A stretch of 23,555 bases of DNA from a virus. The notes beneath the pieces were generated by a model. It did no database searches and was not told where the DNA came from. It saw nothing but the letters and a program-made list of their open reading frames with translations. Both the position numbers and the translations under genes were made by a program. Location: IMG/VR virus record IMGVR_UViG_3300021960_000522, positions 1 through 23,555 of that record; one strand, written 5' to 3'. Positions 1 to 15,417 of this stretch are shown here, piece after piece. The number at the start of each line of letters is the position of its first letter. Positions within the stretch are counted from its first letter, which is position 1.

Positions 1-145
1 CATCCAAGCGACCTGAGCGCACGAGCGCCTCGATACGCTCACGAGAAAGGCCCGAAGCGCGAGCGCCTAAGAGCTCAACGCTGAGCGCGTCATAATGATC
101 TATGATGCTTTGGCGCGTGCGCCTCTCTGCGTCTAGGATCAGCAT
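1..145 (-). CDS. 5' part of an unidentified phage gene (runs off left edge)
   Basis: An ATG at 143-145 opens a frame with no stop down to base 1, giving 48 codons. It begins MLILDAERRTRQSIIDHYDA and contains a charged helical stretch ending in SRERIEALVRSGRLD. The start overlaps the end of the upstream 933-residue gene by 7 bases, the tight packing seen throughout the window. The pattern of a long helix, a short 'GLSRERIEAL' segment and then 'SGRLD' recalls N-termini of phage minor head (MuF-like) proteins, and the position after the portal would suit a head gene. This resemblance is weak and is inference only. The gene is truncated by the window, so length and domains cannot be given. Confidence 0.6.
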   Translation of the reverse strand, partial: MLILDAERRTRQSIIDHYDALSVELLGARASGLSRERIEALVRSGRLD

Positions 146-2940
146 CTGATCGCCTTATAGAGATCGAGTAGCGATGCGCTCTTCATCAACCAAGATGATC
201 CGCGCTGCCCTGCGTCTGCGATCACCTGATCTATCGCGGGTTGCAGCTTCTTATTACCTCTCGGCATTTCAACCTCTTCTCCTCGCGCGCGACGCGCTAG
301 GGTCTCTCTCACCATATCTTTAGCGCGATCATAATGAAATAGCTGATCTGCGAGCTTGCGCGCCTTGCGCGCTCTGGCTTTGAGCTCTTTCTTCTCGGCT
401 GCGCTCGCCTCTCTCATCTGAGACTCTAGCGCGTTCGCGCCTGCCTCAAGATCAAGCGCCTTCTGTCCTGCGTCTGAGAGATCCGCAAAAGATTGCGTCT
501 CGATGTCGCTCAATGATGTCTCTGAGACTGTTTGAAGCGCTTGTTGTCTAATGTCCTGATCTCTTGCAGGGGATGGCCTGCTCTTCTCAGGTAGCTCATA
601 GAGTCGAGATTCGATCTCATGTTCTTTCGCGAGCTCACCCGCGAGCTTGTTTGCTGCCTCGGTATAATCGAGGGTCTCGTCTCCTCCAAACAGGCCCGCT
701 TGCCCTGTGTCTTCGGTCAGCTTAACAAACTTCTTCATAGTGTCTTCAAGCTTCTTCGTGCCGGGATTCAACACAAGAATCTTGAGGAAAGCGCTTGCAA
801 GCGGGTCTTGTCTCACGCGCTCTTTTATCTCGCCTATTGGGATCTTTGAGACGCTGAGCTCGTCGGCCTCGCTCCCCTCTGCGCCTGCTGCTGCGAAGCT
901 CAGCTCTTGCTCTTCTAGCATGATTACATCCATCGCGCGGTTTCTGTCTTTGGGCTTCCCCTTCTGTTTGACAAGGTTGCGCTTGATCCCGTGATCATAG
1001 ATCGCGATCGCGTTCTGTAAGCTCGCGCGGTCTTTCTCGGTGATCCCTGCTGCTGCGAGCTTGCCTAAGCTCACTGTGAGCTGTTCCATTGTCGCGTAGT
1101 CGAGGTTCGGCAAGAGGTGATCATCGTTCACAACGTAGCCTGTGAGCATACTCTGTAGGAACTCGCGCCCTGTCGCGGTGAATGTACCATCTGCGGGTCT
1201 GATGAGCTCGCTCGCGTTCTGAGCATTGAGCACGCCATCTTTAAAGAGCGCCTCTTTGAATGTGCCTAGTGCGTCTGAAGGTCGCGTGAGGAATCTGTTA
1301 AAGGTGAAGTCTGGGAATCTATCGAGCCCGCGCTGAAGTGTCTTAAGTGTCTCCTGACTCACCTTCGCGGCGGCGGCGCGTCCTGCTGTGCGCTCATCCA
1401 TCCCTTGAGTTTTGTTCTCGTTCATGGCGCGCACTAATTTAGCCATGTGCTTTTTATCGGTCTGTTCGGGCTCGTACACCCTTACAAGCATAGGTGAGCT
1501 CATCGCGTCGATGTCTTCTTGGGTGAATCCATAGATCGCTGCGTCTTGAGAGAGTTTCTCTTTGTAGCGCTTCGCGCCTTCTGGGTTTCTCATGTTCACA
1601 AGCTGTGTGCTCATTACTCGGCTATTGCCACCTAACACGATTCCATCAGGCGTTACTATCGGCGGGCCGTTGGTCGCGTCGGGGTTTGTGTTGATCAAAT
1701 AGCTCGGTTCATAAGCGCTACCCGCGTTGCGTTGCACTTTGAGCTGCTCCATTCGGTCTTGATGATAGATGCGCTCTTGAATCCCTTCGGGGTAATCCTC
1801 GCGCTTTGAGAAGCTCACCGGATCATGTGAGGGGATCGCGTCACCGGCCTCAATCAACTGATATCTGAACTCAGCCTTGCGCTCTTTTCCATCGATGGTG
1901 AGAAACATCTCATCGCTTCGCCCTTCGCGCTTTGGCTGTGTCTGTGAGCCAAGTAGCGCGATCACTTTAGGGTCATTGGCTAGCGCGGGGTTCGCTTTGA
2001 TCAGATCTCTAATCGCCTGTAAATGCTCATCGAGCTTTGATTTTGCTACAGGTGGCTTGAGGTCTTCGCCCTCTGGGATGGCGCGTTGATCTCTATCGTT
2101 TGGTGGCCTAAAGTCTTCGACCTTAAGCTGTGTTCGTCCATCTCCTCTAACAAGCATCGATAGAGAGCGATCTTTGTCTGTGGAGCTGCTGAGCGAGTAA
2201 ACTCTAAGCTCTCCCTGATCTCTTCCTTCGATCAATCCCTCTTGCGCTGCGCTCTCTAGTGCCTTGAGCTGATCTTCTGAGAGTTTACCTTGTGAGATGA
2301 TGCTCTTTGTTCCATCATCGAACGTCTCAACCTCGCCCGCGCTGATGAGCTCTCTAAAGATCTCGTCTGTTGCGCTGTCGCCGCTCTGCGCGTAGTCGAT
2401 CTGATCTTTCTTGATGAGCTCATGCGCGGTCTCTGGGTCATTGTCTCTGAGCGCTTTCGCGAGATCTGAATCAAGCGCTTTGCGCTCCGCTGCGCTCATG
2501 CGCTTGATAGATGGGCGCTCTTGTGTCTTTGGCGCCTCCTCGCGCTTCGCGGTCTTCTTCTTCGCTGAGCTCTTGCGCCTGCGCTGCGCCTTCTCTCGGC
2601 TCTTGGTCTCCGCTGCTCCATGCTGTTTCTCTAAGATCGCTCTGAGCTCGCTCTTTGAAATGGTTACAGGCTCCATATTTGGTCGCGCGTCGTGTGAGAT
2701 CGTGACCATATCACCTTCAACGCTCTTGATATGGAAGTGTCCACGGCGCCCTCGCCATGTCAACTTAAAGGCGCTTCCCTCTTCAAAGCTCGCGCCTGTG
2801 ATCCCTCCGCCGTGGTGCTCTGCGTAGTAGTAGCGATAGCGCGCGCGGCCTCGCTTATCAGTGCCTATGCGCTTCTTATGGGTGTATTTGTGCTGAGCTG
2901 CCTTGATGAGCGTGAGCGCTAGTGTTGGTGAGTAGGTCAT
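139..2940 (-). CDS. Large phage protein with DdrB/ParB-like domain and shared N-terminal module (933 aa)
   Basis: The ATG at 2938-2940 is chosen over a longer frame reaching 3000. It starts 1 base after the upstream stop, has GAGAGG at 2953-2958, and gives MTYSPTLALTLIKAAQHKYTH, which aligns with the MTWNLAQTMSMIKAAQHKYTH start of its neighbour. Residues about 11-108 are the module shared with two other proteins here (YRYYYAEHHGGGI, GRRGHFHI, SKSELRAIL). A Lys/Arg-rich linker follows. Residues about 355-500 look like the DdrB-ParB domain known from DarB/DdrB-type phage proteins: RYQLIEAGDAIPSHD, then YPEGIQER, PPIVTPDGIVLGGNSR and PMLVRVYE. The GGNSR box corresponds to the family's GNGR box. 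The rest is helical and charged, with LEEQE and coiled-coil segments to the end. The likely role is virion-associated DNA handling or antirestriction. The domain assignment is fairly secure; the role is inferred. Confidence 0.8.
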   Translation of the reverse strand: MTYSPTLALTLIKAAQHKYTHKKRIGTDKRGRARYRYYYAEHHGGGITGASFEEGSAFKLTWRGRRGHFHIKSVEGDMVTISHDARPNMEPVTISKSELRAILEKQHGAAETKSREKAQRRRKSSAKKKTAKREEAPKTQERPSIKRMSAAERKALDSDLAKALRDNDPETAHELIKKDQIDYAQSGDSATDEIFRELISAGEVETFDDGTKSIISQGKLSEDQLKALESAAQEGLIEGRDQGELRVYSLSSSTDKDRSLSMLVRGDGRTQLKVEDFRPPNDRDQRAIPEGEDLKPPVAKSKLDEHLQAIRDLIKANPALANDPKVIALLGSQTQPKREGRSDEMFLTIDGKERKAEFRYQLIEAGDAIPSHDPVSFSKREDYPEGIQERIYHQDRMEQLKVQRNAGSAYEPSYLINTNPDATNGPPIVTPDGIVLGGNSRVMSTQLVNMRNPEGAKRYKEKLSQDAAIYGFTQEDIDAMSSPMLVRVYEPEQTDKKHMAKLVRAMNENKTQGMDERTAGRAAAAKVSQETLKTLQRGLDRFPDFTFNRFLTRPSDALGTFKEALFKDGVLNAQNASELIRPADGTFTATGREFLQSMLTGYVVNDDHLLPNLDYATMEQLTVSLGKLAAAGITEKDRASLQNAIAIYDHGIKRNLVKQKGKPKDRNRAMDVIMLEEQELSFAAAGAEGSEADELSVSKIPIGEIKERVRQDPLASAFLKILVLNPGTKKLEDTMKKFVKLTEDTGQAGLFGGDETLDYTEAANKLAGELAKEHEIESRLYELPEKSRPSPARDQDIRQQALQTVSETSLSDIETQSFADLSDAGQKALDLEAGANALESQMREASAAEKKELKARARKARKLADQLFHYDRAKDMVRETLARRARGEEVEMPRGNKKLQPAIDQVIADAGQRGSSWLMKSASLLDLYKAIRC
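2617..2910 (-). repeat. Shared N-terminal module, copy in the 933-aa protein
   Basis: Residues 11-108 of the 933-residue protein. Key matches to the other copies are KAAQHKYTH, RYRYYYAEHHGGGIT, AFKLTWRGRRGHFHI, the GD then HD-RP pair, and SKSELRAIL-KQHG. The DNA is also visibly similar to the copy at 4442-4735, pointing to duplication within this genome. Confidence 0.85.
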
Positions 2941-2941
2941 A

Positions 2942-4765
2942 TTATTGCTTAGCCTCTCTCGCAAGGGCGCGCTCTTCTGCGCGCTCTTGCTCTTTATCAA
3001 AGATTAGCTGCTCAAGCTCTTGAATTTGCTTGTTTGTACGCTCTTGGATCGATGAGGTTATCGCTGTGCTGTATGCGTGGCGTGTGGCCATCGCTAGGGC
3101 TTCGCGTTTGTAATACTCCTCTTGAGCCTTCCTCCGTTTATTGTTGGGCTCTGAAGGGATCGCATCATAAGCGGCGTCTCTCTGGGCGTCTAGCTCTGCG
3201 ATGATCGGGGGTATAAGCTTTTCATCACTAACTCTCTCAAGGTCTGCTGATGCGCGCTCTCTCACCTTCGCGAGCTCATATTTGAGACTTTCTAGGCTCT
3301 GATCTTCTGGTAAGGGGGCGCGCGTGGGCGCTTGCTCTGCGAGATATTGAGAGATCGCGTTGAGCTGTTGTCGTGGGGGGTTTGTTCCTTTGTGGCTCGC
3401 TACAACGTCATTGATTAGGCGCTCCATCTTAGGTGTCTTCACTAGCGTGAGTATTGCGTTTATATGCGCTTCTGATGCGCGCTCCGAGTCGGGGCCTTGT
3501 TGTGTCTTTAAGCGCTGCTCAAGCTCTCTGATCTTCTTACGGTTAAAGTCTCCGTAAGTCTCTTTAAGGATCTCGGCGCGCGTCTCTTTATACTCGGCGC
3601 TTGGGGTCTGGGGTGCTGTCTCCTCAGATGATCCCTTAATCTGATCTCTGATCGCTGTCATGAGCTCGCGTGGTTCTCCCGTGGTCGCCTCAATCAGTTG
3701 CTCAGCGAGGGGTAAGAGTTCGGCGCGCTCTGCGTCTGTGAGTGTACCTGATTCGGTTTTATCGATCACCTTATTGAGCTCTGCCTTAAAGGCGCGTTGG
3801 GCTTCTTGTGTACCCTCACCGCTCTTGATCGCGTCTACCATACCGCTGAAGGCTTGCGCGGCCTGGGATCGTTGGTCGGTTGGTTGGGTGGTTTTGAGAA
3901 GTTTCCTATTCAAGAAATCGTTAATTTTAAGAGCTGACTCTCTACGATTTATGGAGGCGGGCTCAATATCAAAGTCATCGGAGCCTATCATCGCTACGAT
4001 TACATTATCAATGTTCGCCTCTTCAGATGGGCCATAGAAAAGACCAAGCGCCTCTGTTAGCTTTTCAATAACAGCGTCTCGCTTCTTTTCTGGAATCTCT
4101 GAGTATCTGAGTTTGTTGTTTTTAAAAGCAATCACGCGCTTAAGTTGTCTTTTTAGTTCCGCGACGACGCTCTGGTGTGCATAGTTAGCTACAGGTTTCG
4201 GTCTTTTTATTTCATTTACACCGTCTGTGTAAACCTTCGGCTGTGTTGCATAATCTTTAATCTTATTGAAGGCTCTGACTTCTGGCTCTGTGGTGAAGAT
4301 CGCTGATGTATCTCCTTGGTAAAACCAATTCACTTTCTCTTCGGGGCTCTTCTGAGGCGCAGGTCTCTTCTTAGCGGGCTTCTTTCGCCCTTTGCGCCTC
4401 GCCTCTTGAGCCTTCTCGCGCTTCTTGTTCTCGATGGTCTCATGCTGTCTTTTGAGGAGCGCTCTGAGCTCGCTCTTTGTCATCTCGACCTCTTTAGCGT
4501 TTGGGCGCCCGTCGTGTTTAACATACACCTTATCACCTTCCACGCGCTGAACGTGAAAGTGTCCTCGGCGCCCCTTAAAGGTGAGCTTGAACGCTGCGCC
4601 CTCTTCGATGCTTGCTGAAGTGATCCCCCCTCCGTGGTGCTCTGCATAATAATAGCGATATCGGATGCGGTTTGTTTTGGGGTCGCGTCCGATCATCTTT
4701 CGGTGTGTGTATTTGTGCTGAGCTGCTTTGATCATGCTCATGGTCTGCGCTAGATTCCACGTCAT
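2942..4765 (-). CDS. Coiled-coil phage protein with shared N-terminal module (607 aa)
   Basis: The start ATG (4763-4765) overlaps the TGA of the upstream 224-residue gene as ATGA, with AGGAGAG about 8 bases upstream, so translational coupling is likely. Residues 11-108 are the module shared with the 933- and 1,493-residue proteins (KAAQHKYTH, RYRYYYAEHHGGGIT, FKGRRGHFHV, TKSELRALLKRQH). A basic linker follows (about 113-140). The remainder is mostly charged helix with no motif I recognise. The last 100 residues (IQERTNKQIQELEQLIFDKE onward) look like a coiled coil. There are no membrane segments and no signal peptide. Its place between a phage conserved-domain protein and the DdrB/ParB-like protein, plus the shared module, suggests a common assembly or location, probably the virion. 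The function is unknown. Confidence 0.75.
   Translation of the reverse strand: MTWNLAQTMSMIKAAQHKYTHRKMIGRDPKTNRIRYRYYYAEHHGGGITSASIEEGAAFKLTFKGRRGHFHVQRVEGDKVYVKHDGRPNAKEVEMTKSELRALLKRQHETIENKKREKAQEARRKGRKKPAKKRPAPQKSPEEKVNWFYQGDTSAIFTTEPEVRAFNKIKDYATQPKVYTDGVNEIKRPKPVANYAHQSVVAELKRQLKRVIAFKNNKLRYSEIPEKKRDAVIEKLTEALGLFYGPSEEANIDNVIVAMIGSDDFDIEPASINRRESALKINDFLNRKLLKTTQPTDQRSQAAQAFSGMVDAIKSGEGTQEAQRAFKAELNKVIDKTESGTLTDAERAELLPLAEQLIEATTGEPRELMTAIRDQIKGSSEETAPQTPSAEYKETRAEILKETYGDFNRKKIRELEQRLKTQQGPDSERASEAHINAILTLVKTPKMERLINDVVASHKGTNPPRQQLNAISQYLAEQAPTRAPLPEDQSLESLKYELAKVRERASADLERVSDEKLIPPIIAELDAQRDAAYDAIPSEPNNKRRKAQEEYYKREALAMATRHAYSTAITSSIQERTNKQIQELEQLIFDKEQERAEERALAREAKQ
4442..4735 (-). 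repeat. Shared N-terminal module, copy in the 607-aa protein
   Basis: Residues 11-108 of the 607-residue protein. This copy has HKYTHRKMIGRDP, YRYYYAEHHGGGIT, GRRGHFHV and TKSELRALLKRQH. It is the closest relative of the copy at 2617-2910, in both protein and DNA. Confidence 0.85.
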
Positions 4766-5436
4766 TTTTTACTCTCCTGTTTGACAATTTTTTGAGCCCA
4801 CTGATCGCCCGCGTCTCCCCCCCATAAGAGCCATGAAATATAGCTGGCGCTTGTGCGGTCTCGGTGGTATCCGCGCTCTTTATAGGTGCGATGTCTGTTA
4901 AAGAAATTCTTCATGCGCTTAACGGTCTCAAGGCTCAGCTCATCGCGGTTTTTCAAATTCACCGCGCGTTGTACTCCTGAGCCTATGCCATGCTCGCTCG
5001 CTTGTTTCGCGCTCAGTCCTCCGCGCCCGTGTTCGCGCCTGAGCTCAAGACCTCTCGCGGCCTCTCGTGCTACGCTCGCCGGTGGCCTGAATCCCTTTTC
5101 AAGATCTCCCTCAAAGATACTCTCGATCTCATCCATGAGTGAGCTCACGCGCGCCTTGTGTAGCGTGCTCATCTCTGAAGCGAGCTCTTTGATCACGTCC
5201 ACCTCTCCTCGATAATTGAGCGGGGGTTGTGGTGTGGTCTTCTTAGCCTTCGCTTTGATCAGATCGATGACCTTTGATGGGGTGTCTCTGGGGTCTAAGA
5301 TCACCTCACCCCGTGCGCCCTGCACGCTAAAGCGTCGCCTCAATCCCTTTTGAAGAGAGAGCTGTTGCCATATCTGGAACTGTATCTCCGGGCGCGCTAA
5401 TTGAGCGCTACTCCCTTTGAGCTTGAGCCTGCTCAT
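4762..5436 (-). CDS. Phage protein with conserved C-terminal 'GRGG...WLLWGGDAG' domain (224 aa)
   Basis: The ATG at 5434-5436 is preceded by AGAGAGG and lies 6 bases after the helicase stop. The N-terminal half is helical and basic (KVIDLIKAKAKKTT) with an acidic helix at about 85-112. Residues about 115-220 match a compact domain I know from many phage structural-region proteins. Its features are 'PPASVAREAARGLELRREHG', GRGGLSAKQASEHG, ETVKRMKNFFNRH and a final WLLWGGDAGDQWA. The domain's role is not established, and it is often found near or fused to head-maturation and portal-adjacent proteins. Context here is the post-portal block, with the next gene coupled by ATGA. A run of seven G (minus strand, plus 4817-4823) encodes the WGG part, but the frame stays intact through it. 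Confidence 0.75.
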   Translation of the reverse strand: MSRLKLKGSSAQLARPEIQFQIWQQLSLQKGLRRRFSVQGARGEVILDPRDTPSKVIDLIKAKAKKTTPQPPLNYRGEVDVIKELASEMSTLHKARVSSLMDEIESIFEGDLEKGFRPPASVAREAARGLELRREHGRGGLSAKQASEHGIGSGVQRAVNLKNRDELSLETVKRMKNFFNRHRTYKERGYHRDRTSASYISWLLWGGDAGDQWAQKIVKQESKK

Positions 5437-5442
5437 TGTTGA

Positions 5443-7410
5443 TCACCTCTCTAAGCTGATAAGCGTTTGGATTATATCAAGATCATACGCTCCACGCTCT
5501 AATAATCTTGCGTGCGCTCGCCGGATTCGCTCATCTGCGCTCGTCTCGATCACTGCGCGGTCTGCATCGGTGAGGGCTCCTGTGAGGCTCGCGCTTTGCA
5601 TGATCTTTCGTGTTAGTGCTTTATTCTTGGCCTCTTCTAGTCGGCTGCCGCTAGGTCTTAGCACGATAACAGGGCGCCTTTGTCCTTGTCTGTATACTCG
5701 CGCGGTGCTCTGGGTCAATGTGTCCGGCGCCCACGGTGTAGAGAGGTGCGCTACCATTGCGGCGCGCTTCTGTAAGTTGGCGCCTGTCTCTAGCGCGCGG
5801 GTCTGTCCTAAGAGAACTCTTGATCCGCCTTCATTGAGTCTCGTTGTCATCTCGGCGCGTTGGCTCTCTGAGCTCTCGCCGGTGTAAATGTCAATCTCTG
5901 AGCTCTTGAGCCCTCGCCTGATCAATGCCTTGCGCGCCTCTGTGAGCCCGATGATATATTCACAAAAGATCACTGCCGCGTGTGTCGGGTCCTCTGAGAG
6001 ATATCTCATCACCATGTCTATGATCCATCTCAGCTTTGGGCTCTCATAGTCTGGTGCGTGGGTGCTGAATGTCTCGCTAAAGATCGCGGGTGATATCGTG
6101 AGCTGCTCTAATCTCATCCCTAGCGCCTGCGCTGTCTGCGGTGCGCCTTCCGCTGCGATTAGGCTCTCAAAACCTCGCTCGCCTTCAAGCGCTTCGCGAT
6201 AACTGCTCGCGTTGAGCTCACGCGCTGCTTGCATCTCTACTAGCAATCTCATGAGCTCGCGTTGATTCTCGTCCGGTGGGATATAAGGCGCTAGATCTTG
6301 GCGCGGTGGTAAGTCTAGCTGTGCGTCGGGGTCTGAGGTGTTGCGCGTGAATAAGGAGTCTTTGAGGCGCTCGTAGAGCTCACCTAACATATCTCCTCTC
6401 AGCGCTCCCATTTCATATTGAGGGCCTCTGATCGAGTCATATTGAGCAAGCTTTCGATAGGTGTATCGAGAGGTGAATTCTTGAATGTCTCCTAATGTAC
6501 CTGGGGCGACTCGATCAATCACATGATAGAAGTCCTCAACGGCGTTTGGCTTCGGCGTGCCGGTGAGCCCTATCACGCGCGCTGCGCTCTTGCTGAGCTC
6601 TTGGAAGCATAGGCCGTTGATTCCGCGCGGGGCTTTGAATTTATGCACCTCATCAGCTACCAATAGATAAGGCTCAAGGCTCATGAGCTTCTTAAAGTAA
6701 TTTCGATCAATTGCGAGTGTCTGTGGTGTGATCAGCACGCCCTCTAACTGCCCATGATAGAGCGCTGTATAGACCGCTTCTCGCTTTTCCGGTGTCTGCG
6801 AGGTCAACACATGGATCTGAGCGTCTGACAGCTCAAGGTGTTCGCTCCATGATGCGTGCGCGCTTTTCGGTGCCGCTATGATCACGCGCTTGAGCTCTCC
6901 GCGCGCTCTCAATAGATGATAGCTCATCAGCGCTATGAGGGTTTTTCCTAATCCCATTTCGAGCGCTAACACTGAGCGCGGGCGTTCGATGGCGAACTGT
7001 ACAGCGCGCGCCTGATATGGATGGGGGGTCCATCCTCGGCGCCTCATCTCGCTCATGCCTTCGGGATGATCTGAGATGTAGATCTGAGGCTCTGAGTAGG
7101 GGCGCGTGAAGTGAGGCTGTCGAGCAGTGTCTAAGAAGGTGAAGTAAAACTCCTCGCGCTCATCATCTGTCCATTTGGCCCAAAGGTCTGAGAGTCTGCC
7201 TATCGCCTCGCTGAGCTGCGCCTCTTCATCTGCGCTGAGATGCTTTAGATCATCAGCCTTGTTCATTGTGATGATCAGCGAGCTCGAAGCATAGCCTAGC
7301 GCGCGTGTGATACCTAAGCGCTTGAGCGCCTCGCCTCCCGTTGTCCATGCGCGTCGGTTGCGCGCGGTGAAGAGGGGCGGGCGGTCTACGCTCAAGCGCG
7401 GGCTATTCAT
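5443..7410 (-). CDS. SNF2-type superfamily 2 helicase / DNA-dependent ATPase (655 aa)
   Basis: All core motifs are visible in order: motif I EMGLGKT (residues 151-157, Lys156), motif II DEVH (253-256, in place of the more common DEAH), motif III GLTGTP (281-286), motif V ETGANLQ (541-547) and motif VI QSTARVYRQGQR (567-578). The last is the Arg-finger region typical of SNF2/RapA-like enzymes. Upstream of motif I, 'TPHPYQARAVQFAI' is the usual Q-like element. The first 48 residues have no counterpart I recognise. A second Met at residue 49 is possible but has no clear ribosome site. The start at 7410 overlaps the ribonucleotide reductase stop as ATGA, so translational coupling fits. Phage SNF2 proteins are thought to translocate on duplex DNA, in replication, recombination or antirestriction. 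Which applies here is not shown. Confidence 0.92.
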   Translation of the reverse strand: MNSPRLSVDRPPLFTARNRRAWTTGGEALKRLGITRALGYASSSLIITMNKADDLKHLSADEEAQLSEAIGRLSDLWAKWTDDEREEFYFTFLDTARQPHFTRPYSEPQIYISDHPEGMSEMRRRGWTPHPYQARAVQFAIERPRSVLALEMGLGKTLIALMSYHLLRARGELKRVIIAAPKSAHASWSEHLELSDAQIHVLTSQTPEKREAVYTALYHGQLEGVLITPQTLAIDRNYFKKLMSLEPYLLVADEVHKFKAPRGINGLCFQELSKSAARVIGLTGTPKPNAVEDFYHVIDRVAPGTLGDIQEFTSRYTYRKLAQYDSIRGPQYEMGALRGDMLGELYERLKDSLFTRNTSDPDAQLDLPPRQDLAPYIPPDENQRELMRLLVEMQAARELNASSYREALEGERGFESLIAAEGAPQTAQALGMRLEQLTISPAIFSETFSTHAPDYESPKLRWIIDMVMRYLSEDPTHAAVIFCEYIIGLTEARKALIRRGLKSSEIDIYTGESSESQRAEMTTRLNEGGSRVLLGQTRALETGANLQKRAAMVAHLSTPWAPDTLTQSTARVYRQGQRRPVIVLRPSGSRLEEAKNKALTRKIMQSASLTGALTDADRAVIETSADERIRRAHARLLERGAYDLDIIQTLISLER

Positions 7411-9389
7411 CTCAATTCACACTGTCCACCTGAGCACACAATAGTCTCAAGAGGTTTCGTCTTGTCTGTCTCCTCGCTAAGATCGTCGTAGTTAACGGGG
7501 CTCATCGTCGCGCTGAGCTCTTGCCATAAGCGCCAAGCTTCGCGCTGTTGATCGCCATCCATATCAGGCGAGACGCCTTGCAAGGGCGCTTGTGCATAAT
7601 CATAATCACCTGAGCTCGCGAGGAGTGAGACGCCCGCGAAGTCTGCGCGGTGTTCCCATAGATATTTCTCTACGTCTGACCACTCGTCAACATCTACGCT
7701 CACAGTGAGGCTTACATTGTGTGAGGCGCCCTCTAAGCTCTCTGGGCGTGCGGTTCCTGCGTTCACATAGTGTCTTTTGACTCTCCGCGCTTCCTCTAAC
7801 ATCTCAAGCGCTGTGATATCGCTCTTAGTGATTGCACCTTCAGGCGCGCTCATAGGGAAGATCGCGCAATAATCTGATCCCCATACGCTCTTCTCTACTG
7901 CTTGTGGGTTGGCCTCTCTAAAGTGGTTGAATACGGGCTCTAATGTGGAGCACTGCACGCGCCTCAAATAGCGCTGAGCGTGCGCGGGGTGAATCCCGCT
8001 TGATGCACCTAAAACAAGGCTCGCGGTTCCTTCGGGCTTTACGCACGTTACACGCGCGGCGGGCCTGATCCCTATGAGCTCCGCTGTCTCTGCGTTCGCC
8101 TTTACCGCTGCGCTTGCCGCTGTCGCTAGGTTTCCGTTCGTCGTCAGGTCCGGCTTATCCATGACCCCACACAAGCTCACACCTAAGAGCGCTTCTCTTT
8201 CCATGATCCGCTGAGAGATGACCCCTAAATATCCCGTTTGCGTGTAGCCCGCTTGGAGTGTGCCGAGTACGGCTGCGCGTCGGCTCGCCTCGATCAGATC
8301 CTTTGAGCTCTCGCACGCGCTGACGTTTACCGTTGTCAGGTTGCACGCCTGCCAACCGCTCTGAAAAGTATAGCCTTGATCTCTCCATTGATCGCGCTTC
8401 TCGGGGTCGAGTAGATCGAGCGTGTACTCCTCAACTACATGACCTCTTTTATCTCGTATATATGTTGGACACATTATGATTTCAACACATGGATTGACCG
8501 CGTGCTCTGTGCTCTCCAAGAAGAGAAAGCCAGGCTCTCCATATTCGCGCGTGCTCTGGATCAGCTCATTAAATGTCTCTTGTGGGGTGTCTGATGTGAT
8601 AACGGCTGAGATGTTAGCTCTTGCGCGCTTCGGGTGTGTGAGATACCACTCGCCGGTCTTCGCCCTCATCATCTCCTGATCATCTGCGCTAAACTGCGCG
8701 ATGGTCGCGCTTCGCCTTGTTCCTGCTGTCCGTGTGCAATCCGCTAAAAACATGGTCATGTCAAAGACCTCAAGGGGCTTTAATTGTCTACCAACTGCGT
8801 TTTTTAAGATTGATCTCACGCCTTCGAGTGCCTCTTTTAGCGGTTCGGGTCCTGGGGCCACTCCTCCCACGCTGAGCGGTGCGCCTTTCGGTCTGATCAG
8901 CGAATAATCAAAGCGGGGCTCTGGTGCGCCTTGCATATATGCCCTCATGAGCTCGTCAACAGCGCTTGCCCAACCTTCGATGCTGTCTGCGATAATCTTG
9001 ATCGATGAGGTTTCAGGCTCTCGGATCTTTGGGAGTCGCGCGACGTGGTGACGCTGAACCGAGAAACCAACACCTGATCCGCACAATAAGAGCCATAGCG
9101 CCTCGGCAAAGAATCGCGGGCGGTCTGCATAAGAGCACGTGCAGTTATAAAGCCTCATGTGCTTGTCTGAGATCCCTTTCCCCCCAAACTGAAGCCCTCT
9201 CATCGATGGTAGAATCTCTTTATTGATCAGCGCTTCTCTCACATCTGCGAGTAGCTCTTCGACGATCTCTCCATACTGTCTACGGTGTGTCTCAAGGTAT
9301 CTATCGACGGCCTCTGGCCACGTCTCGCGGCGCTTCTCAGCCTCATTATATCGCGCGTATTTAAGCTTAAATACAAAATCCCCTATCAT
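7407..9389 (-). CDS. nrdJ: Adenosylcobalamin-dependent (class II) ribonucleoside-triphosphate reductase (660 aa)
   Basis: This enzyme makes deoxynucleotides from ribonucleotides using a B12-generated thiyl radical, feeding phage DNA synthesis. The visible features are those of the monomeric Lactobacillus leichmannii-type enzyme. NCTCSY (Cys83/85) is the first redox cysteine region and GSGVGFSV (104-111) a conserved loop. NPCVEI (299-304) carries the radical Cys301 and Glu303, and ACNLTTVNV (348-356) carries the second redox Cys349. PEGTASLVLGASSGIHP (452-468) is followed by a C-terminal CSGGQC (652-657) with the shuttling cysteine pair. At 660 residues it is shorter than the 739-residue Lactobacillus enzyme. 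The segment between NPCVEI and the CNL motif is about 37 residues longer than in that enzyme. The start at 9389 has AGGAGAG upstream. A coupled helicase gene follows. No cobalamin riboswitch fits in the 74-base leader. Confidence 0.93.
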   Translation of the reverse strand: MIGDFVFKLKYARYNEAEKRRETWPEAVDRYLETHRRQYGEIVEELLADVREALINKEILPSMRGLQFGGKGISDKHMRLYNCTCSYADRPRFFAEALWLLLCGSGVGFSVQRHHVARLPKIREPETSSIKIIADSIEGWASAVDELMRAYMQGAPEPRFDYSLIRPKGAPLSVGGVAPGPEPLKEALEGVRSILKNAVGRQLKPLEVFDMTMFLADCTRTAGTRRSATIAQFSADDQEMMRAKTGEWYLTHPKRARANISAVITSDTPQETFNELIQSTREYGEPGFLFLESTEHAVNPCVEIIMCPTYIRDKRGHVVEEYTLDLLDPEKRDQWRDQGYTFQSGWQACNLTTVNVSACESSKDLIEASRRAAVLGTLQAGYTQTGYLGVISQRIMEREALLGVSLCGVMDKPDLTTNGNLATAASAAVKANAETAELIGIRPAARVTCVKPEGTASLVLGASSGIHPAHAQRYLRRVQCSTLEPVFNHFREANPQAVEKSVWGSDYCAIFPMSAPEGAITKSDITALEMLEEARRVKRHYVNAGTARPESLEGASHNVSLTVSVDVDEWSDVEKYLWEHRADFAGVSLLASSGDYDYAQAPLQGVSPDMDGDQQREAWRLWQELSATMSPVNYDDLSEETDKTKPLETIVCSGGQCELR

Positions 9390-9425
9390 GTCTCTCTCTC
9401 CTCTGATCTAAGGGCGAGTGATCAC

Positions 9426-9453
9426 AATAGAGGATATGAGGCGCCTCTCTCAA
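9426..9453 (-). promoter_or_regulatory. Candidate sigma70-like promoter upstream of the ribonucleotide reductase gene
   Basis: On the minus strand, TTGAGA (plus 9448-9453, 5 of 6 to TTGACA) is followed after 16 bases by TCTATT (plus 9426-9431, 4 of 6 to TATAAT). It lies in one of only two gaps over 30 bases in the window. The host promoter consensus is unknown, so this is a guess supported by position. The rest of the gap (9390-9463) holds the palindrome GAGGCGCCTC at 9438-9447 and the reductase ribosome site. Confidence 0.3.
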
Positions 9454-9463
9454 GCGTTATGTG

Positions 9464-12400
9464 TTACGCGATCCGCTCTATCGTCTGGAGTAGCTGCGCG
9501 CGGTAGTCAATCAGGTGATTAGCGCTCTTTTGTGTGCTCGATGTAGGCTGCGCGGTGGTCGCGTTGCGTAGCTCTTCGATGGAGCTCATGATCCCTGCTC
9601 TAAAGTCTGCGCGTGTCTGCGCGCGCTCTGGTAGGTCTCCGCCTTGTAGCTTCACAAACTGCGAGTAATCAGCGAAGCGAGGCGCGAGGGGTCCAAGTCT
9701 CGCGCTCGCGTCACTGTGCAAGCGGTTATAGATCAGTAAGAGTTCTTGATCTTTGGCCTTCTGCCCTCTGCTCCGTCTCCCTGTCTTTGTGGCCTCTTCG
9801 CTACCTGATGTGATGAAGCGCGCGCGGTCTATAAGGTTTGCTCTGTCTGCTCGGCTTAACTCTCCTGAGCCCGTCAATGTTGCCTCGCTCGCTCTCGGTG
9901 TACTTCTCACGGCTGCGGTTCTCGCGGGCTGATCAGAGAGCTCTCTTACTGTCTCGGTGAGCTGCTCGCGTGGTGTGGTTGGCTGTCTGCCTCTTGTCGC
10001 CTCGTCATACTGTGCAAAGCCGCGCGCGAGCTCCTTAGCAAGATCGCCTCTAGTGCTTCTCTCTGTCAGGATCACTCTGCTGAGTAAGTGCAAACTTATC
10101 TTTTTGATGATCTCGGATTCAGAGCGACCGGGGGCTTTTAACTCCATCTGTGAAGGGATGGTGAAGCCTGCGTAATCCGCGTAATCTTTATATCTTTGAT
10201 AGCGCGCGTCGTCTCCTTTTATACCTAAGCTCGCGGGCCTGTGTTCTGCTAAAAGTCTGTGGATGAAGGGGCTCAGATCACCGGCTGTCTCCTCTAGCAG
10301 TTCTCGGTCTACCGCAGTTGATGTTACGCCGTCCTGATATCGCTCAATAGCGCTGAGCGCGTCGCGGTATTTTAAGGCGGGTTTTGTGTCTAGGCGCTCT
10401 GAGTAAATGGCGGCTGTGTACTTGTCCACAGTCTGGGCGCGTGGCTCAGGTCGCGGCTTTGCAAGTGGTACATCATCATAGATCGTGGCGCGTGGGGGCT
10501 CTTCGATCTGGGGGCCTCGGTCGCGTGGGGTGGGTAGAGGCGCGGCCGTCTCTAGGCGGTCTCTCATCTCCCTCTCAAGTATCGCGCGCGCCTCGCTCCT
10601 GTTCTCGTATGCCTGCGCCGCGCTACCTGCCCCGCTCGCGGTCTGGTTGCGCTCTAGCTTGTTTAGCGCTCCTGTGATCGCGGCTTTTCTCGCTTCTTCA
10701 GGGGTCAAGCTTGTCTGACGCTTTCGAGAGATCTCTTGAGCGCTCGGTAGGTCTGCAAACTCTGTCTCTAATAAGCTGCGCGCTGCCTGCGCTAAAGATT
10801 GATCAGCCTTCTTAGATTCGTTGGTTCGTCTGCCTGTTGCGCGGTCTAACTTTTCAGCCTTTCGTGTTAGCCCTCTCACTCGCCTGTAAGCCTTGAGATC
10901 ACGCGCCTCAACCTCTGGCATCGTCTCAAAGTTGTCCGCGCCTTGTGTCACCTCGCGTGCGGTCTCGGTGAGCTGCTCGCGGGGGGTTGCTGCCATTCTC
11001 TGCGCTGTGCGCTCGCGGTCCTCTTTCGCGCGCTCTATCATCCTGTCAATGATCTGATCAGATGGCTCATATTGATTGATCGCGGCTGTTAGCGCTTCGT
11101 CTAGTGTGTCATAGGTTCCTATCTCGTTTGATGATAATGAGCCTGAGAGCAAAGGTTCATCTCTAAAGCGCTCGCGAGGTAAACTTAGATCATATCTAAA
11201 CTTCCCTTCCCCTCTACCGCTCGCGGGGCCTGTGACAATGTGTCCGTCTCGCTCATAGGTTACGCGCTTGGTCGCCTCGTTTTTGCTAGGCTCACCAAAG
11301 AAACGCTTTGCGTCCTCCGCTGTGCGCTGCCCTTTCGGGGGTAGGTCTTCGATGTTCACTTGGATCTGAGTCTGGAGTTCTTCAAGAAATCGCGTCTCAA
11401 GATCTTTGAGCGCGTCTTCAATCTCGCTGCGTGACTTGATCCGCTTCTTCTTTAAGCTCTCCTGATCATCTGTCCATGATCCGCGCGTGAGTGTCTGTGA
11501 GCTCTTGAGTCCATTCAAGGCGCCTCTGAGCTTCGCGAAGTTGTCTTGTTGAGATGTGCGCTGATTGATGTCTGATGGTAGCGGTCTTTCCATGTCGCGA
11601 TAGTCTTGATCGATGATCCGCTCTATCGCCTCAATGAGTTGCTTATCCTCATTGATCGAAGCGCGCGCGCGTCTCCCTGTCGAGGTGAGCTTATCAGCTC
11701 GATTACTTGTCTTGATCCTCGTCTGGGCGCCTCGCGCTCTCTTGATCGCCTCGCGGGCTCTTACCTGCTTTACATTTAGCCTTGTCTCAGGCGCTGTCTC
11801 TGTTAATTGCTCGCGAGGCGCTGCTTGAGGCTGTCTTTCTTCTAGTCGATCAAGCTCTTTGAGGGCTCTTTGATATTCTTTATTTGCTCGGTCTTCGGCG
11901 ATTCCTATATCTCCAGCTGCTCTGTGATATCGTGCTGCGTTGCGTTGACCTGCTCCTCCTGAGAGTTGAGGTATTACAAGTTTTGCGCTGACTAATCGCC
12001 TCATTTGTTCAAGGATTTTAGGCAGGCGTCGATTTAAGATCTCTTGCGCTTTCGCCTGTTTTGCCTCGGTGCTGTATTCTCGGTTGAGTAGGCCCTGCTC
12101 TAACTTTTCAAGATCATCGAGAAGCTTTTTAACTTCTCTCTCTGCTGTGTCTTCGCGTCTTCGCCCTTCTCGGATAAAGCGCTCTACTGTGATCTCTGAA
12201 CGGATATCATCTAAAAGTGTCTTAGGTGTTCCCGCGCTCTCAACCTCTGGCATCGTCTCAAAGTTGTCAGCGCTTGGGTGATCCTCGTGCGGTGTGACTG
12301 TCTCCGCGCTCGTCTCAGGCGCCTCTTGTGCTGCGCCCTCTACCTCTAGCGCGAAGGCGCGCGCATCTTCAGCGCTCTTGAAGACGAAGCCGCGTACATA

Positions 12401-13945
12401 GCGCGATTCATAGCGCCCGCCGTGCTTCTTCGCGATCTCAACGCGCCTGAAATACTCATCTCGATCAGTGCGCTCTTTCTGCTTCGCGGTGTAGAGCTTC
12501 GCGCCGGTCTTCGTGTGCGTGTGCTCACCTAGCTCAAAGCGCGTGATCTCTTGGTGCTCGTCGTGGCGCTCTTCGTGCTCTTGGTTCGCCTCTTCGATGA
12601 TCTGCTGCGCTGTCTCTGTGAGCTCGTTTCGGGGGGTTGGTTGGGTGGCCTCAATAAGATCTCTGATCTTTTGCATTAAGCGGTCTGCTTCCCTCCTATT
12701 TCTTGTAGAGAAAGCGCTTAGCGTAGGATTCCACGCTGCGATCACGTTGAGGCGCCCCATAGCTGCTAAAGTGTTCCTATACACACTTTCTTCTAGGCGC
12801 TCTCTTGGTGTTACGATTGTCTCTCCGTCTGCCGTATACCCTATCTCAAAGAGATCATTTACCTCTGTGACTGTAACAGCCTCATGAGATCGTCTATCGG
12901 GATCTTGGCGCCTCTGCCTCTCTCGGAGAAAAGACCCCCCCGCCTGTCCTATGGTGCTGTTAATAACAGGATCAGGTTTTTGATTTGTTGATACAAACAA
13001 GCGGGTTTTAGGGTCTATGGTCGGTGAAGAGATCTGTCTCTGCTCTTCTAGGTATTCATCCACCACCTTAAACTCTTCGTCTGAGAGCTGTTTTAAAGCG
13101 TCTGCGACTCGCGTATCTTTAGCGCGTCGCCCTTTTGGCGGGGGTAGCTCATTGTAGATCTTGTTGAGCTTATCGAAAGCTTCTTGAAAAGATGTCTCGC
13201 TCTCCTCTACCTCTGGCATCGTATCGAAGCGATCCTCGCGCGGTGTGTCTGTGACCTGAGCGGGCTTCTTCTTCTTAGGCTTGCGCTGATAACGCTCATC
13301 AAGCTGAACGCCTGCGACCTGCGCCGCTTGTCTGAGTCGGTGAAGCGCGAGACCTAGCCCGCGCTTCACACCTTTGCTCTTGATCCGCTCAACGTCGCGC
13401 CTCTTCTTGTCGAGGTGCTCTTGCTCTGCTTTTCCGTGTTGCTTCTTGAGAAGCGCTCGGAGCTCGCTCTTTGAGATGGCTACAGGCTCCATGTCTGGCC
13501 GTGAATCGTGCGAGATAAAGACCTGATCACCTGAAACGTGATGAATATGGAAGTGTCCTTTTCGCCCTTTCCAAGTGAGCCTAAACGCTGCGCCCTCCAC
13601 AAAAGCACCCTCTGAGACCTTCGCGCCGTGTTTCTTAGCGTAAAAATAATCCCACTCACGTCTGCCCGTTCGCTTGTTCACGCGCTTTGATGGTCTGCGA
13701 TAGTCGTATTTTTTCGTTCTCGCCTTCTCTAGCTCGTCATCGTCCTCTTGATCGAGATAATGATAAGCGCTTTGGATGGCGCCCGCTGCGCGGTCGATCT
13801 TGCTCTGTACCCATTCGGCTAGGTCTTTGTCATCCGGCGCGGCCTCTAACATATCAGCGAGCTTGTCGGCGTACTCCGCGAGTAGCTGAGCTCGTCGCCG
13901 CGTCATCGGTACGTCCTGATAACCTCTGCTATTGATTGCATTCAT
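9464..13945 (-). CDS. Giant repetitive modular phage protein with shared N-terminal module (1,493 aa)
   Basis: The ATG at 13943-13945 is preferred to a TTG two codons upstream because GAGGAG at 13954-13959 sits 8 bases from it. The portal stop ends 2 bases before. Residues about 14-65 (MTRRRAQLLAEYADKL, then DLAEWVQSKIDRAAGAIQ, ending HYLD) resemble a small helical domain common in phage structural-region proteins. Residues 75-171 are the module shared with the 607- and 933-residue proteins. Around 474-540, 'HTKTGAKLYTAKQKERTDRD' and 'RYESRYVRGFVFKSAEDARAFA' resemble a short module seen in large phage and plasmid DNA-processing polyproteins. The rest is charged and Arg/Glu-rich. It has four TPREQLTETA-like and three FETMPEVE-like linkers, and a block of about 90 residues repeated three times. 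There is no signal peptide or membrane segment. The function is unknown; a virion-internal or polyprotein role is inference. Confidence 0.75.
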   Translation of the reverse strand: MNAINSRGYQDVPMTRRRAQLLAEYADKLADMLEAAPDDKDLAEWVQSKIDRAAGAIQSAYHYLDQEDDDELEKARTKKYDYRRPSKRVNKRTGRREWDYFYAKKHGAKVSEGAFVEGAAFRLTWKGRKGHFHIHHVSGDQVFISHDSRPDMEPVAISKSELRALLKKQHGKAEQEHLDKKRRDVERIKSKGVKRGLGLALHRLRQAAQVAGVQLDERYQRKPKKKKPAQVTDTPREDRFDTMPEVEESETSFQEAFDKLNKIYNELPPPKGRRAKDTRVADALKQLSDEEFKVVDEYLEEQRQISSPTIDPKTRLFVSTNQKPDPVINSTIGQAGGSFLRERQRRQDPDRRSHEAVTVTEVNDLFEIGYTADGETIVTPRERLEESVYRNTLAAMGRLNVIAAWNPTLSAFSTRNRREADRLMQKIRDLIEATQPTPRNELTETAQQIIEEANQEHEERHDEHQEITRFELGEHTHTKTGAKLYTAKQKERTDRDEYFRRVEIAKKHGGRYESRYVRGFVFKSAEDARAFALEVEGAAQEAPETSAETVTPHEDHPSADNFETMPEVESAGTPKTLLDDIRSEITVERFIREGRRREDTAEREVKKLLDDLEKLEQGLLNREYSTEAKQAKAQEILNRRLPKILEQMRRLVSAKLVIPQLSGGAGQRNAARYHRAAGDIGIAEDRANKEYQRALKELDRLEERQPQAAPREQLTETAPETRLNVKQVRAREAIKRARGAQTRIKTSNRADKLTSTGRRARASINEDKQLIEAIERIIDQDYRDMERPLPSDINQRTSQQDNFAKLRGALNGLKSSQTLTRGSWTDDQESLKKKRIKSRSEIEDALKDLETRFLEELQTQIQVNIEDLPPKGQRTAEDAKRFFGEPSKNEATKRVTYERDGHIVTGPASGRGEGKFRYDLSLPRERFRDEPLLSGSLSSNEIGTYDTLDEALTAAINQYEPSDQIIDRMIERAKEDRERTAQRMAATPREQLTETAREVTQGADNFETMPEVEARDLKAYRRVRGLTRKAEKLDRATGRRTNESKKADQSLAQAARSLLETEFADLPSAQEISRKRQTSLTPEEARKAAITGALNKLERNQTASGAGSAAQAYENRSEARAILEREMRDRLETAAPLPTPRDRGPQIEEPPRATIYDDVPLAKPRPEPRAQTVDKYTAAIYSERLDTKPALKYRDALSAIERYQDGVTSTAVDRELLEETAGDLSPFIHRLLAEHRPASLGIKGDDARYQRYKDYADYAGFTIPSQMELKAPGRSESEIIKKISLHLLSRVILTERSTRGDLAKELARGFAQYDEATRGRQPTTPREQLTETVRELSDQPARTAAVRSTPRASEATLTGSGELSRADRANLIDRARFITSGSEEATKTGRRSRGQKAKDQELLLIYNRLHSDASARLGPLAPRFADYSQFVKLQGGDLPERAQTRADFRAGIMSSIEELRNATTAQPTSSTQKSANHLIDYRAQLLQTIERIA
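9560..9856 (-). repeat. Repeated ~90-residue block, copy C in the 1,493-aa protein
   Basis: This segment encodes SRADRANLIDRARFI, then KTGRRSR, a helix ending 'LLLIYNRLHSD' and a final FRAGIMSSIEELRN. It aligns by pattern (basic helix, TGRR-R, acidic helix, 'LP' and 'ALN-LE'-like end) with blocks at 10640-10903 and 11492-11770. Similarity is at protein pattern level only and should be tested by alignment. Confidence 0.5.
9951..9970 (-). repeat. 20-base direct repeat, copy 1 (EQLTET linker DNA)
   Basis: The 20 bases here are identical to 10962-10981. Diverged copies occur at 11795-11814 and 12612-12631. Each encodes the linker (T/A)P-R-(E/N)-(Q/E)-L-T-E-T of the 1,493-residue protein. Confidence 0.85.
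10640..10903 (-). repeat. Repeated ~90-residue block, copy B in the 1,493-aa protein
   Basis: This segment encodes LKAYRRVRGLTRKAEKL, RATGRRTNESKKAD, a helix with ARSLLETEFADLPSAQEI, and an end ITGALNKLERNQT. The TGRR box, the LPS box and the GALN-L---QT end match copy A at 11492-11770 in the same order and with similar spacing. Confidence 0.6.
10908..10936 (-). repeat. 29-base exact direct repeat, copy 1 (DNFETMPEVE linker DNA)
   Basis: The 29 bases are identical to 12240-12268, about 1.3 kb away in the same gene. They encode the DNFETMPEVE linker. A third, diverged copy at about 13208-13235 encodes RFDTMPEVE. Confidence 0.9.
10962..10981 (-). repeat. 20-base direct repeat, copy 2 (EQLTET linker DNA)
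   Basis: Identical to 9951-9970. It lies about 25 bases from one copy of the 29-base FETMPEVE repeat, so the two linkers form a compound linker (TPREQLTETA, then ADNFETMPEVE) at this junction. Confidence 0.85.
11492..11770 (-). repeat. Repeated ~90-residue block, copy A in the 1,493-aa protein
   Basis: This segment encodes VRAREAIKRARGAQTRIK, LTSTGRRARASINEDKQLIE, ERPLPSDINQRTSQQ and LRGALNGLKSSQT. The TGRR, LPS and GALN-L--(S/N)QT elements recur in copy B and, more weakly, in copy C. Confidence 0.6.
12240..12268 (-). repeat. 29-base exact direct repeat, copy 2 (DNFETMPEVE linker DNA)
   Basis: Identical to 10908-10936. Exact DNA identity between two linkers in an otherwise diverged protein suggests recent duplication, or exchange by homologous recombination at the linkers. 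Confidence 0.9.
13433..13723 (-). repeat. Shared module, copy in the 1,493-aa protein
   Basis: Residues 75-171 of the 1,493-residue protein. This copy is more diverged: REWDYFYAKKHGAKV replaces the YRYYYAEHHGGGI stretch, but AAFRLTWKGRKGHFHI, GD-V-ISHDSRPDMEPV and ISKSELRALLKKQHG align closely with the copies at 2617-2910 and 4442-4735. Here the module is not at the extreme N-terminus but follows a roughly 70-residue helical domain. Confidence 0.8.
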
Positions 13946-13947
13946 GC

Positions 13948-15417
13948 TCAAAACTCCTCATCGATCTCGATGTCGTTATCTTGGTTGGGTGGTGTGAGGC
14001 CTGGGATCTCTTCGCCCTCATCCTCTTCACCTTCGCCGGCGGCGGCCATTTGTGCTGCGTTAATGTAGCTTGAGTTAAGCAACATATCAGCTATTGGATT
14101 ATCGAGCGGTTCAAGGTCAAAAGCTGCGCGCGCCTCATTCACGGTCATGTAAGAATTGACCTTCTTACTGATCGCGTCTAGGCGCTGACTCTCGCTCTCT
14201 ACATCGAGGCCTACGAAGCTGAGCTCTAAGTGAGGCGCTAAAGGTGAGATGATCCAACGATTGATCCATGTCTCTAGCGACCTGAGCAGAGGTCTCAACC
14301 CCTTCTCTTTGGAATACTCGATACGTTGCGCGGGGCCGCCTTGATTCAGTGCGCTTGATTGTCCTTCGTTACCAAACACATAGCCGAGCTCAGCGGGGTC
14401 CATCTGATATAGCGCGCAAACTTCTTTGATCAAGAAGTTGAGCCAAGAACTATACTCCATGTCAGAGTTCGAGTTGGTCATGTTGACCGATTGCACCTCT
14501 TCTTTTGCCTCAGGATCAAGTTGAATGATCGGTGTCTTCTTCGCGCCGTTCCCCCCCTGAAGCATCGAATAGAACTCGCGCCTGAACGCTCTAAACAGCG
14601 CAGGGCTCATCTTGCTCTTGATGGCTAAGATTCCTGATAGATGTAAACCGTGGGTGAAGTTTGCCGAGTTGTACGCCTTCGCTCTCACCATGTCTATGAT
14701 CGTGGGCGCTGCCTCTTCGATCTCAGGATAACCATATCCATTCGATGAGATCTCGCTTCTTGGCCTTCGAATCCCAAAGGCCATTTGATCCGCGTCAAAC
14801 TCCGCAACCACTCGATTATCGAGGACCTGAACATAAGCGGTTTTTTTCGGGTCGCGTTGGCCTGCTTTGATCTCTGCCTCTGTAGGCGCGGCGCGTCTGA
14901 TGGTCGCTGAATCGACCGGCTTAAAAGCGACCGGCCGCCCGCCTTTATGGATGATCTCGAAACAGCACTGATCAAGCGTCAAACTATCGCGCGTGACCTG
15001 TCGTAAGAAGCCCTCAAATGTTTGATGACCTACGATCCGTGAATCACCACAACGGAGTAACCATTCAACGATCGTCTTGATCTCTTCGCGGTGCTCATCG
15101 GTGAGCTCTTCGCTTTGATCTCTTAGCCTAATCACGAAGCCTGCGGCGTGTCTATCTGGCTGTGGTCGTGCAAACTCCGCGACTTGAGAGACGCGGGTTT
15201 GAATAATTCCGCTGATCAGTGGCACGCGCGCTAACTGTCTCAGAGTCGTATAGCTGAGCGCGCCTTGTGTTCCCTGATGAGCGTCACCCAACAGCGCGCT
15301 CTGATAACTCAGATTGTGATCGGTGCTGTATGGGTTGAGCTCATACGCCTGAGGCGTGCCAGGCTTCGCTTTGACTAGATCCGTCATCGCCTCGATGGTG
15401 TTTTGTATGTCGCTCAT
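13948..15417 (-). CDS. Phage portal protein (489 aa)
   Basis: The portal forms the dodecameric ring at the head vertex through which DNA enters and leaves. The length is typical for the family. Visible portal-like features are an N-terminal helical segment with LARVPLISGIIQTRVSQVAEF (about 62-82) and a 'GYGYPEIEEA' element (227-236) before a long helix. After these come 'EYSSWLNFLIKEVCALYQMDPAELGY' (about 321-346) and an SALNQGGPAQRIEYSKEKGL stem/wing region. A later 'SYMTVNEARAAFDLEPLD' is the typical C-terminal portal element, and the tail is acidic. The ATG at 15417 has GAGGGG upstream and follows the amidase-like gene by 14 bases. It is separated from the terminase by about 6.5 kb of fibre-like and lysis-like genes, which is less usual than a directly adjacent terminase-portal pair. 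Confidence 0.88.
   Translation of the reverse strand: MSDIQNTIEAMTDLVKAKPGTPQAYELNPYSTDHNLSYQSALLGDAHQGTQGALSYTTLRQLARVPLISGIIQTRVSQVAEFARPQPDRHAAGFVIRLRDQSEELTDEHREEIKTIVEWLLRCGDSRIVGHQTFEGFLRQVTRDSLTLDQCCFEIIHKGGRPVAFKPVDSATIRRAAPTEAEIKAGQRDPKKTAYVQVLDNRVVAEFDADQMAFGIRRPRSEISSNGYGYPEIEEAAPTIIDMVRAKAYNSANFTHGLHLSGILAIKSKMSPALFRAFRREFYSMLQGGNGAKKTPIIQLDPEAKEEVQSVNMTNSNSDMEYSSWLNFLIKEVCALYQMDPAELGYVFGNEGQSSALNQGGPAQRIEYSKEKGLRPLLRSLETWINRWIISPLAPHLELSFVGLDVESESQRLDAISKKVNSYMTVNEARAAFDLEPLDNPIADMLLNSSYINAAQMAAAGEGEEDEGEEIPGLTPPNQDNDIEIDEEF
13954..13959 (-). promoter_or_regulatory. Ribosome binding site deciding the start of the 1,493-aa gene
   Basis: GAGGAG on the minus strand lies 8 bases before the ATG at 13943-13945 but only about 2 bases from the alternative in-frame TTG at 13949-13951, so the ATG is the better start. 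The site lies inside the portal gene's last codons. Confidence 0.75.

Follow-up and report, generated by a model that had tools for sequence, protein, structure and literature searches.

A discrete domain of about 100 residues, referred to below as the module, recurs on unrelated cargo in large phage proteins. The genes of these proteins are located in the head-morphogenesis operon, and the cargo that can be recognized is the polyvalent-protein set of the P1 DdrB/DarB type. We somewhat favor the view that the module is a docking domain, by which anti-host polyvalent proteins would be recruited into the procapsid. The window, i.e., the whole stretch of 23,555 nucleotides analyzed here (IMG/VR record IMGVR_UViG_3300021960_000522), comes from an uncultivated tailed-phage genome. 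Every gene lies on the minus strand, with terminase, fibre-like proteins, a CHAP endolysin and the portal followed by three large module proteins. The features discussed below are the following:

139..2940, minus strand: 933-aa module protein with a ddrB-ParB domain
1474..1884, minus strand: ddrB-like ParB domain (PF18763, E 4e-14) in the 933-aa protein
2581..2916, minus strand: module copy of the 933-aa (DdrB-type) protein, by sequence match, about residues 9-121
2942..4765, minus strand: 607-aa module protein, its cargo devoid of known domains and mosaic across relatives
4403..4741, minus strand: module copy of the 607-aa protein, by sequence match, about residues 9-121
4762..5436, minus strand: 224-aa protein conserved beside module genes, with a C-terminal match to phrog_2859
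5443..7410, minus strand: SNF2-family helicase, here without the module; related helicases are fused to it in other phages
7407..9389, minus strand: ribonucleotide reductase without the module (in-operon negative control)
9464..13951, minus strand: 1,495-aa module protein with a helical N-terminal segment, the module, and cargo with repeated short motifs
13397..13741, minus strand: module copy of the 1,495-aa protein, hairpin diverged, by sequence match, about residues 71-185
13948..15417, minus strand: portal gene, upstream of the module genes

With the copy of the 607-aa protein as query, the other two copies of the window are retrieved with E-values of 1.1e-50 (65% identity) and 4.6e-30 (about 42-46%), and about 40 alignment columns are invariant across the three, which bears out the sequence-only reading that one module of about 100 residues is common to these large proteins. 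The similarity of two copies as DNA, noticed at the same time, is also found: the 933 and 607 copies are 73% identical over 144 nt, and the 607 copy is 68-70% identical to the other two over 105 nt. The copy of the largest protein had been described as diverged, and so it is, but the divergence resides in the N-terminal hairpin (WDYFYAKKHGAKV) and not in the barrel that follows. In the window clade, a K/R-rich (lysine-rich) linker comes directly after the module. The start of the 933-aa protein is taken as the ATG at 2940; an upstream TTG start would give 953 aa.

Viral contigs were scanned three times and bacterial and archaeal genomes once; with the subsequent iterative profile search (cut-off of at least 35 bits), this yielded 141 module domains (104 distinct in sequence) in 136 ORFs, which come from uncultivated phages and from genome contigs of Myxococcota. 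As loci partly overlap on the same contig, the independent genes number somewhat fewer than 136. Exactly one module is present in 131 of the 136 ORFs and two are present in the remaining 5. The median module ORF has 986 aa and the proteins reach 3,050 aa. Of the 104 distinct copies, 60 start no farther than residue 60 of their protein and the others start deeper, one example occupying residues 1154-1253 of a 2,912-aa protein. Outside of it, the proteins are mostly unrelated or cannot be aligned, largely as had been noted for the three window proteins, and in full-length alignments of 31 and 29 relatives the module is essentially the sole conserved block. Matches lying mainly outside phages, the outcome that the sequence-only reading had named as adverse, are not what the searched collections contain: among the Myxococcota, 3 of 284 genomes carry the module, with a portal gene on two of the three contigs, the third being short. 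No match was obtained among cultured phages, queried with five different module copies, or among plasmids, queried with one copy.

Regarding known families, members of the module alignment have no convincing match among Pfam, PHROG and NCBIfam profiles, the hits being at chance level and mutually inconsistent, with SH3-type folds recurring. Sequence searches of solved structures returned nothing significant for the module or for the cargo of the 607-aa protein, and no literature was found on a shared loading domain of polyvalent proteins. The module is new to the tested public libraries (Pfam, PHROG, NCBIfam) and to the searched literature, whereas the protein class itself is already known. 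It could be one of the 40 LPDs of a 2017 study (PMC5512222) that were never deposited in Pfam, the comparison having covered the Pfam-deposited LPDs.

Polyvalent proteins (Iyer et al., 2017; PMC5512222) are large, multidomain proteins that are encoded near portal-type packaging genes and, by prediction, are packaged in the virion and injected. Their domain vocabulary is also that of the module proteins, which in the first relatives carry ddrB-ParB, SNF2 or Strawberry-notch helicase, ART-PolyVal and LPD1 domains. A further 60 module proteins display ddrB-ParB (16), LPD1 (8), SNF2 (6), ART-PolyVal, InPase, PAPS reductase and Strawberry-notch helicase (3 each), C5 methylase (2), and DarA_C, GNAT, RelA/SpoT and N6 methylase (1 each); in some phages helicase, module and ddrB are fused in a single chain. 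The class of the window proteins is not anonymous, since a ddrB-ParB domain, a typical component of polyvalent proteins, is present in the 933-aa protein. Large polypeptides with disparate domains, one hallmark of this class, characterize the module family at large as well as the 933-aa protein (one known domain plus the module); the other hallmark, a phage with portal-terminase packaging and a virion gene context, is likewise present. Unlike the polyvalent proteins described so far, the module matches no Pfam LPD model, the 607- and 1,495-aa proteins have no recognized domain besides the module, and the three window proteins have no Pfam match to the zincin-like metallopeptidase that is common, though not required, in polyvalent proteins.

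The cargo of the 1,495-aa protein contains two short motifs between 9946 and 13246 (minus strand), with four occurrences of PRxxLTETA and three of DxFxTMPEVE. Among related phages, both are restricted to module proteins and to ORFs of this large type that are cut at an end. Processing sites, or motifs for binding that lie between cargo domains, are possible roles; a role as sites of the head protease is unproven, the motifs being found in no capsid, portal or MuF ORF. The helical N-terminal segment of the same protein (13742-13906) has a weak likeness to uncharacterized proteins of Pelagibacter phage HTVC008M and Synechococcus phages (E 0.07-0.9).

The gene context of the module is that of head assembly. 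In the relatives of the window, the portal gene is followed by a 1,495-type module protein, ribonucleotide reductase, SNF2 helicase, the 224-aa protein, one or more 607-type module proteins and a DdrB-type module protein, and further on by a MuF-like minor head protein, the head maturation protease, a 190-aa protein, the major capsid protein and, at some distance, the tail sheath. The identities of the reductase and the helicase in this order were confirmed. Portal, MuF, protease and capsid genes still adjoin the module genes in distant contigs, where module identity is down to 25-45%. Over 15 contigs, the mean distance from a module ORF to the closest of these head genes is 3.2 ORFs and large control ORFs of the same contigs mostly lie much farther away, with a P of about 5e-5 that overstates independence given the common ancestry of the contigs. 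A head or packaging gene is present within 4 ORFs in 74 of 92 loci; the other 18, some of them short or cut, have no recognized head gene at that distance. A profile search for the fusion partners and gene places of the module, proposed earlier as a check, therefore points to polyvalent-type cargo encoded among portal, MuF, protease and capsid genes, and the status of the module proteins as head-operon proteins with polyvalent cargo is well supported. The module is absent from the neighbors themselves (45 portal, 40 MuF, 30 protease, 24 capsid and 19 terminase ORFs, 0/158 in the same loci; ribonucleotide reductase, 0/16) and is carried by 7 of 39 SNF2-like ORFs of the same operons, the other 32 being without it; in these counts, overlapping loci may tally one gene twice.

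Some particulars of this arrangement can be added. The ribonucleotide reductase gene (7407-9389) stands inside the head-morphogenesis operon, between the portal and capsid genes, and keeps this place in several relatives, while in others it is near the terminase. The 224-aa protein (4762-5436) is kept in most relatives between the helicase and the module genes, and the family that it matches, phrog_2859, is of unknown function. In L144 and G034 (L075), a second module protein is encoded among tail or connector genes, away from portal and protease.

That the module is a shared address tag on different cargo had been suggested from the sequence of the window. One module in 131 of 136 ORFs, varied cargo of the packaged type and placement among head genes agree with this suggestion, although loading by the module stays an inference. 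As a mechanism, each polypeptide would have one small docking domain, folded as a helix, beta-hairpin, SH3-like barrel and second helix, that binds a common component of the procapsid, possibly the inner capsid surface, the scaffold or protease core, MuF or the portal vertex. The cargo would be held in the head ahead of DNA packaging and would exit with the DNA, then blunt host restriction and reprogram the cell. The presence of a single module per polypeptide, the packaged-type cargo and the head-gene placement in distant phages fit this docking role well, as does the absence of the module from in-operon neighbors such as ribonucleotide reductase, portal, MuF, protease and capsid. Its weak points are that the module is internal rather than N-terminal in many giant proteins, that 32 of 39 SNF2-like ORFs of the same operons do without it even though the SNF2-family protein DarB of P1 is packaged, that P1 DarB, DdrB and DarA have no module, and that a few module ORFs are near tail or connector genes (G034, L144) and 18 of 92 loci have no head gene nearby. 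A wider proposal, on which we are more reserved and which we put forward tentatively, is that many groups of tailed phages may use this one folded domain as a general and transferable tag for the loading of polyvalent effectors. It would capture any attached protein into the procapsid, so that recombined cargo would amount to gain or loss of delivered effectors.

Two known systems of head-targeted proteins can be compared with the module. In P1, the N-terminal capsid-targeting signal of DarB is sufficient for the loading of a reporter, and the Dar proteins enter the head and are then ejected (PMC9024508; PMC12810830). A common loading signal of the Dar proteins has been suspected, no consensus being obtained by BLAST, and the P1 signal is shorter than 30 residues (PMC9024508). 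As in the P1 Dar system, DdrB-type and SNF2-type cargo genes are found here near portal and head protease genes, and the ddrB region of the 933-aa protein also matches ddrB of the P1-like phage D6, whose ddrB gene is near portal and head protease genes. In contrast to the P1 signal, the module has about 100 residues and is missing from the P1 proteins: its profile has no significant match in DarB, DdrB or DarA when searched against the P1 region, and its identity by sequence with the Dar capsid-targeting signal was rejected. The internal proteins of T4 are diverse anti-host cargo with only a conserved targeting sequence in common (PMC3012670). They resemble the module proteins, which may be internal head proteins as well, in the presence of one conserved element on varied proteins; they differ in that the T4 targeting sequence is found on small proteins, whereas the module is predicted to be a folded domain of about 100 residues on proteins of up to 3,050 aa. 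On the best reading, the module may do as a folded domain what the capsid-targeting sequences do in T4 and P1.

The selection of diverse injected anti-defence proteins for the head is known only for the T4 internal proteins and partly for P1 DarB (PMC9024508). The module may be the label by which defence-breaking proteins get into the virus head, and its conservation on more than 130 ORFs makes the question of head selection directly testable. It also provides a sequence handle for delivered effectors of unknown function, e.g., the 607- and 1,495-residue proteins, and might become a laboratory tag with which proteins of choice are directed into phage heads.

With regards to structure, the AlphaFold2 prediction (86 diverse sequences; pLDDT 80, pTM 0.71) has a short helix first and a long C-terminal helix last; between them lie a beta-hairpin, formed by the HKY and YRYYY segments, and the strands of an SH3-like barrel (pLDDT around 90). 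The predicted barrel aligns over 50-60 residues with SH3-like small beta-barrels (Tudor, KOW, TnsB barrel, NdhS), from which the module differs by its additional N-terminal hairpin and C-terminal helix and by the absence of a significant sequence or Foldseek match: its structural neighbors are all weak (TnsB barrel, Z 5.5; SETDB1 Tudor, Z 5.3; also PWWP and Sac7d), the best Foldseek E-value with the predicted module is about 0.1, and the best PDB profile match, again an SH3-like barrel, is not significant. The main rival to docking, which we consider unlikely, is that the SH3-like barrel and the lysine-rich linker bind DNA, the cargo entering the head with the genome or staying on the viral DNA after ejection with no need for a protein partner. 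Small SH3-like barrels often bind nucleic acid, the neighbors cited include the TnsB barrel, PWWP and Sac7d, the three window modules have a net charge of +10 to +12 and are followed by the K/R-rich linker in their clade, and part of the cargo acts on DNA. Against this stand the weakness of the fold matches and the distribution of charge over 106 distinct modules (median +6, range -4 to +14, 17 of them at +2 or less), which makes a universal charge-driven role of the module less likely and weakens the idea of universal charge-based DNA binding.

Still less likely, in our judgment, is that the module joins polyvalent proteins to one another, or else to the SNF2 helicase and the 224-aa protein, in a single antirestriction complex whose head loading depends on another signal. 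Some phages do have several module proteins, the helicase and the 224-aa protein often adjoin them, and the P1 Dar proteins are mutually dependent for incorporation (PMC12810830). Many phages, however, have a single module protein, and the module is retained where helicase, module and ddrB already form one chain.

Recombination in and around the module is documented. The cargo of 607-type proteins is a mosaic across related phages, with segments that are 48-97% identical and others that are unrecognizable, while the modules remain similar; in one locus (L015), three tandem genes have modules that are 86-98% identical and cargo that differs. Another locus and its close copies (L008; L009, L010) lack the 607-type gene and have a DdrB-type gene with a chimeric module (L008, 8395-8754), in which the upstream DNA and the first half of the module resemble the window 607 copy, and the second half and the cargo resemble the DdrB copy, the switch point being directly after the RYRYYYAEHHGGGI hairpin. 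The chimera arose by a crossover between two neighboring module genes with loss of the intervening gene, and the module thus acts as a natural crossover point. If the module is a docking domain, its constancy would be the reason why cargo can be exchanged by recombination beside or inside it. In all the module pairs compared dN is well below dS, so that the module is under purifying selection. A module tree sorted by cargo was not obtained: the deep branches follow the phage clade and cargo types are mixed within the window clade, with weak support.

Recombination inside the module, together with the presence in the operon of ribonucleotide reductase, an enzyme expected to act in the cell, could also be accommodated by an unpackaged, in-cell role during phage production, the module being a structural element of general use in head-operon proteins that duplication and recombination have spread, but this is improbable given that the ddrB-ParB, ART-PolyVal, LPD1 and DarA_C cargo is that of packaged proteins, that ribonucleotide reductase itself has no module, and that the low dN relative to dS shows the module to be under constraint.

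As a minor observation, the terminase, ribonucleotide reductase and SNF2 helicase of contig G008 (L044, L045) appear to be split across several reading frames (contig bases 2799-4654 and 20098-24120), through sequencing errors or decay.
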